Shown in pieces: positions 12,024-42,925 of a stretch of DNA of 42,925 nt. The notes beneath the pieces are model-generated. The model was not told the origin of the DNA. It saw only the letters and a list, made by a program, of their open reading frames with translations, and searched no databases. Each line of letters opens with the position of its first letter. Position 1 is the first letter of the stretch. The position numbers were made by a program, and so were the translations under genes. The stretch is from a virus, in the IMG/VR virus record IMGVR_UViG_3300036799_000151, positions 1 to 42,925 of that record. One strand, written 5' to 3'.

Positions 12024-13313
12024 GTGCTGACCGAGCCGCAGTGCCGATCGGCGCGGCCGCGGGAGAAGGCGTACAAGCTCGCCGACTCGAAGGGCCTCTA
12101 CCTCTTCGTCTCAGGGACCGGCTACCGCTCCTGGCGCTGGAAGTATCGCTTCGCCGGCAAGGAGAAGCGCCTGGTCTTCGGCCCCTATCCGGAGGTCGGC
12201 CTGAAGCAGGCGCGCGATCTCCGGGACGACGGGCGGCAGCTGCTGCGCCAGGGCATCGACCCGGGCGCGCGCCGGCGCGAAGCGGCGACGGCCGCGGCGA
12301 TCGCCGGCGAGACGGTGGAGAAGGTCGGCCGGCGCTGGCACGCGGCCCAGGCGGCGCTCTGGAAGTCGAAACATGCGGCGGATGTGCTGCACAGCCTGGC
12401 CGAATGGGTTTTCCCGGCGCGCTCGGCGGCGTGGCTTTGGGAGGGGAGGTTCGGCGAGTTGCCGATCGCCGCGGTGCGCCCGCGCCATGTCCGGGCGGTG
12501 CTGAAGGCGATCGAGGACCGCGGCGCGATCGAGACGGCGCATCGGGTGCGCGGGCGGCTTTCGGCCGTCTTCGCAATGGCGATCGCGGAGGAGCTGGCGG
12601 AGAGCGACCCGGCCGGCGCGGTGGCGAAGGCGCTACAGCCGGTCCGCAAGGGCCGCATGCCGGCGCTCGAAACGCTGCACCAGGCCCGCGCCTTCCTGCG
12701 CGACATCGAGGCCATGCCGGCGCATCCGGTCACGAAGCTCGCCTCGCGGCTGCTGGCGCTGACCGTGGTCAGGCCAGGGGTGATCCGGTTCACGCCCAGG
12801 GAGGCCGAATTCACCGGCCTGGGCGGCAAGGCGCCGCTCTGGACGGTGCCGGCGGCGCGCATGAAGCTCGAGCTCGCGGAAAGCGAGGATCCGGCGTTCG
12901 ATTTCCTGGTGCCGCTGTCGGCGCAGGCGGCCGACGTCGTCCGGGTGGCGCAGCGCCTCGCCGGCGGCTCGCTTTGGCTCTTTCCGCAGGTCCGCTTTCC
13001 GCGCCGGCCGATCAGCGAGAACGCGCTGAGCTACGCCTACAAGCGGCTTACCGAATGGCGCGGCCGGCATGTCCCCCACGGCTGGCGGTCGACCTTCTCG
13101 ACGATCATGAACGAGCTCGCGGCCGTCCGCGATCGCCCGGGCGATCGCCAGGTGATCGATCTCATGCTCGCGCATGCGCAGGCCGGCGTGGAGCCGATCT
13201 ACAACCGCGCCGCCTACATGCCGCGCCGGCGCGAGATCGCGCAGGAATGGGCGGACATGCTGCTCGAGGGGTTCCCGCCAGCGGAGGCGTTGCTCGAGGG
13301 GCCGCGGCGCTAA
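12024..13313 (+). CDS. int: P4-type tyrosine integrase 1
   Basis: 429 residues, GTG start at 12024. The N-terminal DUF4102 domain ('AYKLADSKGLYLFV', then 'WRWKYRFAGKEKRLVFGPYP') is followed by a SAM-like core-binding domain and the catalytic domain. Visible active-site residues are R250 ('LTVVRPG'), H352 and R355 ('VPHGWRSTF'), H384 ('LAH') and Y393 ('IYNR'). All are present, so it should be active. It shares the 'RHVPHGWR' block and overall design with the second integrase 1 kb away on the opposite strand but is clearly divergent. It follows AlpA and precedes a replication-type gene. Confidence 0.92.
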   Translation: MLTEPQCRSARPREKAYKLADSKGLYLFVSGTGYRSWRWKYRFAGKEKRLVFGPYPEVGLKQARDLRDDGRQLLRQGIDPGARRREAATAAAIAGETVEKVGRRWHAAQAALWKSKHAADVLHSLAEWVFPARSAAWLWEGRFGELPIAAVRPRHVRAVLKAIEDRGAIETAHRVRGRLSAVFAMAIAEELAESDPAGAVAKALQPVRKGRMPALETLHQARAFLRDIEAMPAHPVTKLASRLLALTVVRPGVIRFTPREAEFTGLGGKAPLWTVPAARMKLELAESEDPAFDFLVPLSAQAADVVRVAQRLAGGSLWLFPQVRFPRRPISENALSYAYKRLTEWRGRHVPHGWRSTFSTIMNELAAVRDRPGDRQVIDLMLAHAQAGVEPIYNRAAYMPRRREIAQEWADMLLEGFPPAEALLEGPRR

Positions 13314-14406: not shown

Positions 14407-15657
14407 TCAAGGGTGCATTTTCTCGCGGTTTTCTTCCGCGAAGGCCGGCGGCGCCGGCAACGCCTTCAGGCGCGGCTCGAGGAGATCGGCCCAGCGCTGC
14501 ATGAGGCCGCGCATGCGCGCATCGTGCCGGGCCCGGTTGTAGGCGGCCTCGACCCTGCTTTTCCCCGCTTTGTGGCCGAGCGCCTGGTCGATCAGCTGCC
14601 GATCGTCGGGATAATGCTCGTTCATGATCGTGGAGAAGCTGGCGCGCCAGCCGTGCGGGACGTGCCGGCCGGCATAGCCGGCGCGCCGGTAGAGCTCGCC
14701 GATCGCGCCCTCGCCGATCGGGAAGCCGGTCCGGCCCGGGAAGAGCCAGCCATTGGCGCCCGAAAGCGGCCAGAGCAGTCTCAGGACGTCGACGGCCTGG
14801 CGCGACAGCGGCACGACATGCCCGGCCGCGGGATCTCCCTTTCTCACCTTGGTGAGCTTCATCCGCGCCGGTGGAATGCGCCAGATCGGCGCAGGCCCGT
14901 CCAGCTCCTCGAGCTCGTGCCAGCCAGCGCCGCGGAGCGCGGCCATGCGCACCGCGGTCAGTGCCAGGAAGCGCGAGGCGAGCTTGACGATCGGCGCGCC
15001 GGGCGCCGCGGCGGCCGCCGCGAGCAGCACGCGCGCGGCGCCGATATCGGTCAGCGCCGGCTGCGGCCTGGTCAGCGGACGCGGGCCCATGCGATCGGCG
15101 ACCATCGCCGCCGGGTCCGCTTCGCAAAGCTCGTCGTGGATGCCGAGGCGGAAGATGCCGGAGATCCGCTCGCGCAGCCGCCGCGCCGTCTCGAGACAGC
15201 CGCGGCGCTCGACCGCGCGGAGCAGATCGAGCACGTCGCGCGACTTGATCGCCGCCGGCGCCTTGGCGCCGATCGCCGGGAAGACGTCGCGCTCGAGGCT
15301 GTCGAGGACGTCGGCCGCGTGCACCGGCGACCAGTGCGCGAGCTGCTCCGCATGCCAGCGCCGGCCGAGCTGCTCGAAGCTCTCGCCAGCCGAGCTCGCC
15401 GGCGACGTCGATATCGACGGATCTATATTCCGGCGCAGCTGCTCGCGCGCGCGATCGCGCAGGGCCCGCGCCTCGCCGAGCTGCAGCTCGGGCCAGGCGC
15501 CGAAGGTGAGCAGCTTCTCCTTCCGGCCGAAGCGATATTTCATCCGGAAGCAGCGCGAGCCGTTCGGCCGGACGAGGAGATAGAGCCCGCCGGCGTCGGC
15601 CAGCTTATAGGGGCGCGCGGCCGCGGCCGCGGCCTTCACGGTCGCGTTGGTCAGCAT
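14407..15657 (-). CDS. int: P4-type tyrosine integrase 2
   Basis: 416 residues. DUF4102 N-terminus ('PYKLADAGGLYLLVRPNG', 'MKYRFGRKEKLLTFGAWP'), SAM-like middle, and catalytic domain with R237 ('LTAVRMAALR'), H335 and R338 ('VPHGWRASF'), H362 ('ALGH') and Y373 ('AAYNR'). All active-site residues are visible. It points away from the tRNA-Arg gene 0.8 kb to its right, the usual type of target for P4-type integrases, so this is the better candidate for site-specific integration at tRNA-Arg. The start at 15657 fits the family. The next plus-strand gene begins only a few bases away, leaving little room for separate promoters. Confidence 0.92.
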   Translation of the reverse strand: MLTNATVKAAAAAARPYKLADAGGLYLLVRPNGSRCFRMKYRFGRKEKLLTFGAWPELQLGEARALRDRAREQLRRNIDPSISTSPASSAGESFEQLGRRWHAEQLAHWSPVHAADVLDSLERDVFPAIGAKAPAAIKSRDVLDLLRAVERRGCLETARRLRERISGIFRLGIHDELCEADPAAMVADRMGPRPLTRPQPALTDIGAARVLLAAAAAAPGAPIVKLASRFLALTAVRMAALRGAGWHELEELDGPAPIWRIPPARMKLTKVRKGDPAAGHVVPLSRQAVDVLRLLWPLSGANGWLFPGRTGFPIGEGAIGELYRRAGYAGRHVPHGWRASFSTIMNEHYPDDRQLIDQALGHKAGKSRVEAAYNRARHDARMRGLMQRWADLLEPRLKALPAPPAFAEENREKMHP

Positions 15658-16441: not shown

Positions 16442-16518
16442 GCGCCCGTAGCTCAGCCGGATAGAGCGCGAGGTTCCGAACCTCGAGGCCGCAGGTTCGA
16501 GTCCTGCCGGGCGCACCA
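16442..16518 (+). tRNA. tRNA-Arg(CCG), CCA encoded
   Basis: A 77-base cloverleaf. Acceptor GCGCCCG pairs with CGGGCGC, discriminator A then CCA. The D-stem is GCTC/GAGC. The anticodon stem CGAGG/CCTCG carries loop TTCCGAA, giving anticodon CCG (reads CGG). The T-stem GCAGG/CCTGC has loop TTCGAGT. All stems pair fully, so the gene looks functional. It could supply an Arg tRNA for a GC-rich genome, or carry the attachment site for integrase 2 at its 3' half, or both. Confidence 0.95.
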
Positions 16519-16524
16519 GGTTGA

Positions 16525-16833
16525 TCAGGCTCCCGGCCCGGACATCGGCCGCTCGAGCGCGCTGGCCCGGTAGATGGCGCGCAGCGCGCCGTCGGCGTTG
16601 GAGGAGCGCATCAGGTCGACGATCGTCGGATTGACGCCCTTGTCGCCGCCGCCGGTGACGACCTTCCAGAATTCGTCGAACGGGGCGCGGTCCTCCGCCT
16701 CGTTGCCGAGCCAGGCCAAGGCGAAGCGCAGCGCCGCGGTCGGCGCCACCGGCCCGTCCCGGCAGGCGAGATAGGCCTCCTCGAGCGCCTGGAGCGCTTT
16801 GTCCCTGAGCTGCTCGGACGAGAATCGCGCCAT
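16525..16833 (-). CDS. Hypothetical protein
   Basis: 102 residues, all helical, with no membrane segment. Segments such as 'LRDKALQALEEAYLACRDGP' and 'FDEFWKVVTGGGDKGVNPT' look conserved in style but are not assigned to a family I can name. It ends six bases from the tRNA and starts divergently from the gene at 16918, leaving an 84-base gap that may hold two promoters. Confidence 0.6.
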   Translation of the reverse strand: MARFSSEQLRDKALQALEEAYLACRDGPVAPTAALRFALAWLGNEAEDRAPFDEFWKVVTGGGDKGVNPTIVDLMRSSNADGALRAIYRASALERPMSGPGA

Positions 16834-16917
16834 GCGCGGAAAATGGAACGAAGCGCGAACGGGCGCAAGCTGCGGACCCGGCGCGCGCCGGCGGCGTTGT
16901 CCGGCGTGGAGGCGCGC

Positions 16918-39951: not shown

Positions 39952-39969
39952 CGCTCACCTCCGGGCATG

Positions 39970-39996
39970 AAAAAAGCCCGCGGGTGGGCGCGGGCT
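39970..39996 (-). terminator. Rho-independent terminator on the minus strand
   Basis: On the minus strand, AGCCCGCG / CGCGGGCT form a perfect eight-base stem with a six-base loop, followed by six T. It separates the immunity/regulatory genes (40103 and above) from the late minus-strand operon that starts at 39951. It is the clearest terminator in the window. Confidence 0.85.
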
Positions 39997-40102: not shown

Positions 40103-40978
40103 TCAGGCGATCCGGGCATGGGCGCGATCGAGGTCGCCCTGGTCGACCTCGCGCACCGCGTCGCGCAGCATCCGCGGCCAAAGGTCCAGGGCGCCGATCA
40201 GCAGCCGCTTCAGCCGCTTGTGCCCCATGCCGAAGCTCCTGGCGGCGATCGTGAGGGGCAGATGCTCGCCGGTGAGCATGGCCAGCACGGGCGCCGGCGC
40301 CGGCAGCGCGTGGCGCCATCGCGTATAGGCCATCTCGTGCCGCACCTGGCTCAGCCGCTCGTAGAAGCCGCCATCGCCCATCCGCGTCACGTCGACGCGC
40401 GTCTCGAGGCTGGCGGTCTTGATCGTGACGCCCGCGGCGATCCGCTCCGCAACCAGGTTGATCTCCTCGGCCGCGGCGAGCTGCTCGGCGTCGATCGCGC
40501 CGGTTTCGTAGAGCCGGGCCAGCGCGCCGTCGTTCCGGCGCGCGGCGTGCTGGTGGGTTTCCGGCGTCCCGTCGTTCTTGTGCTTCCAGCGCGCGACCAG
40601 GTCGGCGCGCTCCTTCCGGAGCCGGCGCTCGGATGCGGCCGCGGCGGGATGCCGGCGAGCCCAGGCCTCTTTGCCGGCCTCGGCCCGCGCGTCGAGCCGG
40701 CGCTGGGCCTGGCTGCGGCGATCGCGCTTCGGGCGCTTGGGATTGAGCGACACGACTTTCGCCGGGACCGCTCTGGCCGCGCGCACCGCGGCCAGGCGGC
40801 GGGCGGCGCTTTCGCGGAGCGGCGCGCTCAGCCGCTCGGCCCGTTTCGCATTCTCGCTGGCATCGCGCTTCGCCTTGGCCCGCCTGAACTCGGCCCGCGC
40901 CGCGCGGGCGGCCTTGGAATACCAGCCCGCGGGCTTCTTCGGGCGCTCGAGGCCGCCCGCGCCGATCACTTGCACCAT
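40103..40978 (-). CDS. Basic DNA-binding-like phage protein
   Basis: 291 residues. The first 140 residues are extremely Arg/Lys/Ala-rich ('ARAEFRRAKAKRDASENAKR'), probably disordered and nucleic-acid binding. Residues 150-285 form a helical domain ('AIDAEQLAAAEEINLVAERI', 'RLSQVRHEMAYTRWRHAL') with a likely HTH near the end ('LTIAARSFGMGHKRLKRLLI'). Named family not certain. It is cotranscribed with the LexA-like gene, 16 bases downstream. Confidence 0.65.
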   Translation of the reverse strand: MVQVIGAGGLERPKKPAGWYSKAARAARAEFRRAKAKRDASENAKRAERLSAPLRESAARRLAAVRAARAVPAKVVSLNPKRPKRDRRSQAQRRLDARAEAGKEAWARRHPAAAASERRLRKERADLVARWKHKNDGTPETHQHAARRNDGALARLYETGAIDAEQLAAAEEINLVAERIAAGVTIKTASLETRVDVTRMGDGGFYERLSQVRHEMAYTRWRHALPAPAPVLAMLTGEHLPLTIAARSFGMGHKRLKRLLIGALDLWPRMLRDAVREVDQGDLDRAHARIA

Positions 40979-40994
40979 TGAGACCCCACCCGGT

Positions 40995-41393
40995 TCACTC
41001 GTCGGGTTTATGGTCCAGGAAGAGCAGGTCCGGCAGTCCGTTTTTCGTGAGGGGCGGCGTTGCGGTCAGCGCGCCCGCCTTGATCGTCCAGCCGCGCTGG
41101 GCGAGCAGGAGCAGCACGTCGGCCTCGCTGATCTGCTCGCCGCGGTCGATCAGCACGATCCCGCGCTTCTTGCCCTTCACGACCTTGATCTGCAGCTCGC
41201 GGGAGAGCTGGCCGACCAGCTCGTGGGCATATTTCACGCCGATGCCGAGCTCGGCCGCCAGCTCGCTCAGCGTCGGCGATTCACCCCATTGCGCAAAGTA
41301 GCGCTTGATGAAGTCCAGCGCCTGCAGCTTGCGGCTTCGCATCGTCGGCGTAAGGCGGGCCCGCTCCCCCATGTCCTTGGATATAGCGAACAT
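40995..41393 (-). CDS. LexA-N-like winged-helix regulator without peptidase
   Basis: 132 residues. Residues 14-82 match the LexA DNA-binding domain pattern: 'RSRKLQALDFIKRYFAQWGE', 'SPTLSELAAELGIGVKYAHE', and wing 'VVKGKKRGIVLI'. The remaining 50 residues are unrelated to the S24 peptidase domain, so RecA-stimulated self-cleavage is not possible. ATG 41393 or 41372 may be used. An exact GTTC-N7-GTTC LexA box lies 11 bases upstream of 41393. It may bind host-type LexA boxes and autoregulate (inferred). Confidence 0.75.
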   Translation of the reverse strand: MFAISKDMGERARLTPTMRSRKLQALDFIKRYFAQWGESPTLSELAAELGIGVKYAHELVGQLSRELQIKVVKGKKRGIVLIDRGEQISEADVLLLLAQRGWTIKAGALTATPPLTKNGLPDLLFLDHKPDE

Positions 41394-41403
41394 TGCGTGA
41401 ATG

Positions 41404-41418
41404 GAACATGATGGGAAC
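41404..41418 (-). promoter_or_regulatory. SOS (LexA) box GTTC-N7-GTTC
   Basis: On the minus strand the sequence reads GTTC-CCATCAT-GTTC, the exact alphaproteobacterial LexA operator spacing. A third GTTC half-site follows at 41388-41391, overlapping the start codon of the LexA-like gene. Location upstream of that gene indicates SOS or self control. Confidence 0.75.
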
Positions 41419-41839: not shown

Positions 41840-42452
41840 CGGCCCCTCCTTGTTGGCGTCGGAGATAGTCCTTCGCCATAGCCTGTAGGCCATCCTTGCC
41901 GAACCGGTTCAACTCGCGATAGGTCTTGATCAGATCGCCTTCGTCGGCATCGAGCACCGCCAGCACGATGCCAAGCTCGGCGAGCAGCTTCTTCGCCGCA
42001 CTCTTCCTTTTGCTAGGATGGCCGTAATAATCCCGCACGAACGCGCGGACCGGCCGGCGCACCTCCTCGCCCAGCCGATCGAGGTGGGCGACGAGACGCG
42101 CCTCGTCCCGAAACAGCAACGGGCGCGAGCCCGCGAAGGGATGGCTGGCATAATACCAGTTGCGGTCGTTCAAATATTCGATCCGCCGCACGTTGGTCTC
42201 GTCGCCGTCGAGCGCCGCCATTTCGAAAGCATATTGTGCCAGCCGCAGCCAGCGCGGCAGTTGCCGCGCGCCCTCGTCCTCGAATGCCGTCACCTCCTGC
42301 GCCACCGGCGGGGCGAGCGGCCAATGGAAGTCGCTCGCCATCTGCATCATCCGGATCACCAGCTCGTCGGCCGCCCATCCCCGTGCCTCGCGCTCCTTCT
42401 TCAGCCAGGCGCGCGAGCTGGCGACCAGCGCCTTCTCGCTCGGCTCAGCCAT
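41829..42452 (-). CDS. Repressor-associated hypothetical protein
   Basis: 207 residues from ATG 42452, overlapping the repressor's last eight bases. The N-terminus ('SSRAWLKKEREARGWAADEL' then 'VAQEVTAFEDEGARQLPRWL') resembles a degenerate XRE HTH. The C-terminal part is a conserved-looking helical domain ('REELNRFGKDGLQAMAKDYL' in style). It is co-transcribed with the repressor, so likely expressed in the lysogen. Confidence 0.65.
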   Translation of the reverse strand: MAEPSEKALVASSRAWLKKEREARGWAADELVIRMMQMASDFHWPLAPPVAQEVTAFEDEGARQLPRWLRLAQYAFEMAALDGDETNVRRIEYLNDRNWYYASHPFAGSRPLLFRDEARLVAHLDRLGEEVRRPVRAFVRDYYGHPSKRKSAAKKLLAELGIVLAVLDADEGDLIKTYRELNRFGKDGLQAMAKDYLRRQQGGAGEH

Positions 42453-42825
42453 CGGCCTCGCCTGGGCGATAGCTCGGCCGCGTATCATGGAGGGTCCTCG
42501 CCCCGCGCATGCGTTCGGCGACGCGCAGCAGCGCCGATCGGTCCGCGGGGTCGAGCTCGCGGAAGTCGGTGATCAGCCTGGCCTCGTCGGGGCTGAGCTC
42601 CGGCGCCGGCGGCGCGTCCGCGTCCGGATCGTCGGTCTCGCCGGTCAGGTAGGCGGGCGTGGTGCCCAGCTCGCGGGCGATTCGGTGGAGGTGCGTGGAC
42701 GAGCGTGAGCTGCCCCTGATCAGGGCGTTGATGGCAGGCTGAGTTAGGTGCACGCGGCGAGCCAGTTCGGACTGGCTTAGGCCCGTGGTCTCGAGACGTT
42801 CTTGGATGCGGCTGCCGACGCTCAT
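42445..42825 (-). CDS. XRE-family prophage repressor (CI-like, no peptidase)
   Basis: 126 residues from ATG 42825; an earlier in-frame ATG at 42861 would add an unlikely N-terminus. HTH at about 16-40 ('GLSQSELARRVHLTQPAINA', then 'LIRGSSRSSTHLHRIARELG'). The C-terminal 60 residues are acidic then helical and lack an S24 peptidase. It is divergent from the YdaS/Cro-like early operon across the control region, so it is the likely lysogeny repressor. Induction cannot occur by self-cleavage. Confidence 0.85.
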   Translation of the reverse strand: MSVGSRIQERLETTGLSQSELARRVHLTQPAINALIRGSSRSSTHLHRIARELGTTPAYLTGETDDPDADAPPAPELSPDEARLITDFRELDPADRSALLRVAERMRGARTLHDTRPSYRPGEADG

Positions 42826-42925
42826 CAGGCAGCCCAGCCTAAAAGCGAACTTATAGACCGCCATGCAAGAGTCCTGCTTGACCATCCCATAAGAACTCTG
42901 ATAGCCGAGTCGTATGGACGCGAAT
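42764..42925. repeat. Terminal direct repeat, right copy (circular closure)
   Basis: Matches positions 1-161 with one extra T at 42890. It contains the repressor 5' end, the control region (42826-42913) and the first four codons of the early gene at 42914. It should be merged with the left copy when the genome is circularised. Confidence 0.9.

Follow-up and report, generated by a model that had tools for sequence, protein, structure and literature searches.

A peptidase-less LexA-type regulator of Sphingomonadaceae phages and its predicted promoter repeat, seen at a locus with an exact SOS box

Introduction

The viral DNA analysed here (IMG/VR record IMGVR_UViG_3300036799_000151), called the window in its full length of 42,925 nucleotides, comes from a virus of bacteria that live in soil and water and carries a gene for a LexA-type winged-helix protein behind an exact copy of the alphaproteobacterial SOS box, GTTC-N7-GTTC. 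This arrangement raises the question of which protein reads the site: the LexA repressor of the host, RNA polymerase or the phage product itself. The reading favoured here, at a probability of roughly one half, is that the product, a peptidase-less, LexA-fold phage regulator, binds a conserved repeat in its own promoter and is autoregulated. The genes concerned and the terminator that follows them are:

42445-42885 (-): HTH_3 (Cro/CI-like) repressor by Pfam, without a peptidase domain
40995-41372 (-): LexA-type winged-helix regulator without a peptidase, 125 aa when counted from the start that is conserved; its open reading frame begins at 41393
40103-40978 (-): conserved partner gene immediately downstream of the winged-helix gene, 291 aa, helical, with weak similarity to sigma region 4 in its C-terminal part (202-276)
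39967-39996 (-): perfect intrinsic terminator AGCCCGCG-CCCACC-CGCGGGCT-TTTTT after the partner gene

The winged-helix protein

The open frame at 40995-41393 (-) encodes 132 aa and has a strong coding signal. Because the winged-helix alignment of the relatives begins at window position 41372 (MGE/MGA), the start at 41393 is probably too far upstream, and the ATG at 41372 is most likely the true one. The Pfam model LexA_DNA_bind scores 17 bits on the protein, below its cut-off of 23.7. In searches against solved structures, phmmer finds the E. coli LexA DNA-binding domain (1lea, E 3.7e-5) and a profile search places E. coli LexA DNA-binding domains first (E 4e-7). The AlphaFold model has a mean pLDDT of 57.6, with 64-78 in the winged-helix blocks. 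LexA is its top Foldseek match (E 1.6e-4) and also its best match by VIA, where superposition on the LexA-DNA complex 3jsp gives Z 11.8 and an rmsd of 2.1 over 68 residues; a structure prediction compared with LexA, as proposed in a preliminary description of this DNA, thus points to the fold that had been named there. Rrf2/IscR-type winged helices have a similar fold (1ylf, Z 10.3), and the Pfam Rrf2 model reaches 26.7-26.9 bits; membership in this family was rejected since the score lies below the cut-off of 30, and the phage protein differs further in having no cysteine and in scoring higher against LexA structures (Z 11.8).

Pfam yields no S24 peptidase match in the winged-helix protein, which extends only about 50 residues beyond the winged helix, nor in the HTH_3 repressor at 42445-42885. 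Two statements of the preliminary description are therefore borne out: that the LexA-type winged helix is without an S24 peptidase (by sequence, profile, model and Pfam), and that the main repressor is likewise without one.

Relatives, gene order and the partner gene

The comparison covered six viral contigs, seven genomes of Sphingobium, Sphingomonas and other Sphingomonadales, and 76 viral loci that were found via the neighbouring partner gene and come partly from the same contigs as the other sets. A single-protein search of named phages with the winged helix gave no match, and a first genome scan with two winged-helix sequences returned nothing; an alignment of the partner then found prophages. 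Relatives are present in the genomes of Sphingobium wenxiniae and S. lactosutens. The same partner gene directly follows the winged-helix gene in all seven bacterial prophages first found, and in 45 of the 90 loci scanned (duplicates included). Comparison of whole contigs places, on one strand, the repressor, a variable slot, the winged-helix gene, the partner, small genes, HNH, terminase and structural genes, with the early genes on the opposite strand; this layout is that of a temperate phage. Two integrase-like genes of the window, at 12024-13313 (+) and 14407-15657 (-), lie on opposite strands and both have homologues in the related phages G003 and G004. In one locus (L002, approximately 2020-2930), genes for a RelE/HigB-like toxin and an HTH antitoxin are located between two copies of the winged-helix leader, the upstream copy of which retains a truncated 5' end of the winged-helix gene; the arrangement suggests that an insertion has duplicated the leader.

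The model of the partner is helical, with a mean pLDDT of 85.6 from 63 sequences. No strong structure match was found for it: Foldseek against the PDB gives E above 0.5 and VIA reaches Z 6.8 at best. In most rows of this weak VIA list (Z <=6.8) the C-terminal part aligns with sigma region 4. Against Pfam, neither DUF6456 nor any other family is matched by sequence; against BFVD, weak matches to DUF6456 phage proteins are obtained (E 0.19 and 0.65). The partner family is well conserved, yet it matches no curated family. It is also wider than the winged-helix family, in that about half of the loci have no winged-helix match beside the partner, and more distant partner homologues occur in other gene contexts.

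Because the terminator at 39967-39996 follows the partner gene, the winged-helix and partner genes seem to form a separate unit. This terminator was missed by a simple scan, and only 14 of the 45 loci, counted with duplicates, show a terminator after the partner. The proposed two-gene unit, with the winged-helix gene as its first and the sigma-4-like partner as its second member, stands between the repressor and the packaging genes in a family of temperate Sphingomonadaceae phages.

The box in front of the winged-helix gene

Three elements are recognized in the promoter region of the window:

41404-41418 (-): exact SOS-type box GTTCCCATCATGTTC (GTTC-N7-GTTC), occupying the family's conserved repeat, [A/T/G]TTC-N7-GTTC; by pattern scan and family motif
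41388-41402 (-): second repeat copy ATTCACGCAATGTTC, adjoining the box; family motif, 12.7 bits
41373-41390 (-): -10-like element GCTATATCC directly before the start, in the slot where subgroup-1 relatives have TTACAGT or CTACAGT

The exact box reported in the preliminary description is present at 41404-41418 (-); its distance from the gene, given there as 11 bases, is 31 bases when counted from the likely start at 41372. Exact copies of GTTC-N7-GTTC occur twice in the window against 0.69 expected by chance, and 12 of 100 shuffles contain at least two, so that the box count is not unusual. When the window alone is scanned with the family motif, the box scores 16.1 bits, a slight excess over the shuffled maxima (15.3), and the 12.7 bits of ATTCACGCAATGTTC fall inside the range of these maxima. 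The significance of the box motif is therefore drawn from the family alignment, not from the window scan alone.

For this alignment, Gibbs sampling was applied to 36 distinct upstream regions, taken from phages and prophages of the Sphingomonadaceae type. A single motif was obtained, [A/T/G]TTC-YCSC-TAT-GTTC, with 728 bits compared to 337-369 bits in shuffled sequences. Like the alphaproteobacterial SOS box, the repeat has an 11-base period, and its first base is normally A or T. Among held-out prophages, the motif was found in seven of the nine scored (19.5-26.8 bits). In six of seven phage records the repeat at the winged-helix promoter is the top-scoring site; the exception is G004, for which automatic motif placement picked another site. 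The top motif copy in G001 belongs to the leader of a truncated duplicate. Within the family the window's repeat is an outlier, reading CATGTTC and having a second copy beside it.

Host LexA as a reader of the repeat

One explanation of this pattern is that host LexA represses the promoter: the window would contain a working SOS box, the degenerate repeats of the relatives would be weaker LexA sites and the unit would be induced by DNA damage. The window's box is exact and differs from a sphingomonad lexA box (GTTCCCTACATGTTC, L152) at just two N7 positions, so that binding by host LexA is possible as judged by sequence. Furthermore, 20 of the 36 upstream regions are one mismatch away from the exact box, the ending TATGTTC is also frequent in host SOS-type boxes, the phage repressor has no peptidase, and in the Bacillus phage GIL01, LexA acts at a box of low conservation with the help of a phage co-factor (PMC4551915). 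The exact box itself, however, is confined to the window among the 36 regions (15 have two or more mismatches) and absent from the seven held-out prophages with the motif, while 30 of 33 sphingomonad lexA promoters used as a control carry it (1/36 versus 30/33, Fisher p 5e-15 with sequences taken as independent). The first base of the repeat is G in only six of the 36 regions, and the base frequencies of the motif by themselves predict 1.6-2.0 exact matches in 36. The pair of protein and exact box, for which the preliminary description had suggested a search in other phages, is among these 36 upstream regions and seven prophages seen in the window only. Of its proposal that SOS is sensed through host LexA, what stands is that the box could bind LexA by its sequence; as a family trait the exact box is not kept. 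Host LexA control of this promoter may therefore occur in the window, and as the explanation for the repeat it is regarded as rather doubtful.

Promoter layouts

A second explanation requires no regulator: TATGTT would be a -10 element, the upstream TTC a spacer preference, and the repeat would be bound by RNA polymerase only. In the larger subgroup, a -35-like TNGC is indeed separated by a 17-base spacer from TATGTT or TATATT, and the right half-site thus also serves as -10 in one subgroup; part of its conservation is accordingly promoter conservation. The two subgroups differ, however, in layout. The -35-like TNGC is found in 14 of 26 members of the larger subgroup and in none of the ten of the window's subgroup, whereas a downstream -10-like element matching a strict pattern is found in 0/26 and 5/10, respectively, with two more such elements (CTACAGT) recognized by eye in the window's subgroup. 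Single layouts for all members, first a leaderless promoter made of TTACAGT or GCTATATC and then one with TATGTT as -10, were dropped, as the subgroups seem to differ, and no one transcription start is assigned to the family. Since the repeat is shared while the promoter layouts are not, a binding site fits better than a plain -10. In addition, the spacer TTC carries 0.9-1.7 bits per base, and subgroup 1 has no such -35 in the corresponding slot. The promoter-only explanation is considered unlikely.

Recognition helix and co-variation with the repeat

The recognition helix reads GVKYAHEL in the window, [S/N]xxR[A/V] in the family and SKSG[V/I]HRL in host LexA, according to an alignment of sphingomonad LexA proteins. 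It varies within the family and differs from the host sequence at most positions; the window protein is itself an outlier, in which a nearly invariant arginine of this helix is replaced by tyrosine. Among 26 non-redundant members, distances between repeats track those between the recognition helices (partial r 0.24, p 0.003-0.006), a modest co-variation, for which the poorly aligned tail shows a weaker signal too and 36 windows were tested. No such correlation was found for helix 1 or the wing in the same members. This result moderately favours the phage protein over host LexA as the predicted binder of the repeat, and it likewise speaks against a site for RNA polymerase only.

The same helix bears on the idea that the product is a LexA mimic which, insensitive to RecA, would occupy the LexA boxes of the host and dampen the SOS response. 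A LexA fold, the missing cleavable domain and an exact SOS box before the gene would suit such a role. The recognition helix, however, departs from SKSG[V/I]HRL both in the window and in the family, and the family repeat usually has no G at the first position, which host boxes keep. This part of the preliminary description is thus not supported by the comparison, and mimicry is considered very improbable.

With these points taken together, the regulator would most likely bind [A/T/G]TTC-N7-GTTC in its own promoter and control its own unit. The exact SOS box in this promoter is probably an isolated variant of the control site that belongs to the protein itself, namely the family repeat with G in its first position, rather than a site kept for host LexA.

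A second exact SOS box and other damage-inducible candidates

The second exact box of the window lies elsewhere:

16846-16860 (-): second exact SOS box GTTCGCGCTTCGTTC, by pattern scan
16525-16833 (-): small gene, 102 aa, without a family match, behind the second box, which is 12 bases before its start

The family of this small gene has five members, that of the window among them; exact boxes precede three, and the box of a fourth has a single mismatch. The homologues in G004 and G064 have exact boxes and are located just upstream of the winged-helix gene. Because homologues of the downstream gene often carry SOS boxes, 16846-16860 is a likelier true LexA site than 41404-41418. The small gene would then be a candidate for damage induction, possibly an antirepressor, and damage control of such a small gene would make sense in a phage with a peptidase-less repressor.

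In 29 related records, 37 exact boxes are present compared to 13 of the reversed pattern, an approximately three-fold difference, and many of the exact boxes lie 17-32 bases upstream of the start of a small accessory gene. The box at 16846-16860 belongs to this class. Several unrelated small genes (L173-L202) stand behind exact SOS boxes, frequently within the variable slot that precedes the winged-helix gene, and some contain paired cysteines (e.g. L175, L179, L180 and L192). Pfam and PHROG searches with nine SOS-box small genes gave no informative match. A tRNA-Arg (CCG) gene at window 16442-16518 (+) lies beside the 102-aa gene, approximately 0.8 kb from the tyrosine-integrase-like gene at 14407-15657; this tRNA locus is a possible attachment site.

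Relation to known systems and meaning

The temperate Bacillus tectivirus GIL01 encodes gp6, a truncated LexA homologue that consists of the DNA-binding domain only and activates a late promoter by way of a palindromic site, GaCACAnnTGTGaC, and its genome also has LexA-repressed phage promoters (PMC6182141). Given this precedent, the view that the arrangement had not been described was too strong. The present protein resembles gp6 as a LexA DNA-binding domain without a peptidase encoded by a temperate phage, a likeness in kind. The conserved element upstream of the present gene is a direct repeat ([A/T/G]TTC-N7-GTTC), where gp6 reads a palindrome; phage type, host phylum and neighbouring gene also differ. 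With alphaproteobacterial LexA and its GTTC-N7-GTTC box, the phage protein and repeat share the winged-helix fold and the 11-base direct-repeat geometry of the site, whereas the peptidase is missing, the recognition helix is another one and the site is normally without the first G. In alphaproteobacterial gene transfer agents, GafYZ/GafA form a self-controlling two-gene or multi-domain unit, which drives the phage-like structural genes (PMC11150451, PMC9638019). The unit described here is similar in being a two-gene regulator, with self-control as a predicted feature, and in the weak structural matches of the partner to sigma region 4 and DUF6456 phage proteins; unlike in GafYZ/GafA, the partner has no sequence match to DUF6456 and the winged helix is of the LexA type.

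The position of the unit upstream of the packaging genes is no more than suggestive of a late-gene role like that of GIL01 gp6 or GafYZ (PMC6182141, PMC11150451); the regulator would probably also control the step to late expression. A more elaborate scheme can be imagined, in which the LexA-fold protein and its sigma-4-like partner load at the repeat promoter and let RNA polymerase pass the terminator into the packaging genes, as a late-gene switch of a new kind (compare Q and GafZ) that is now linked to host LexA by the exact SOS box in the window. This scheme is speculative and quite improbable as a whole.

The locus illustrates that one conserved site may, by ordinary variation, come to match a well-known regulatory site of another kind exactly. 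The literature searched contains no description of this LexA-fold regulator family of Sphingomonadaceae phages, for which a cognate repeat is predicted and the partner is conserved; the protein and its predicted site lend themselves to a joint test. Should binding to the repeat be real, the phage would, as in the case of GIL01 gp6, have reused the DNA-reading domain of LexA as a regulator of its own.
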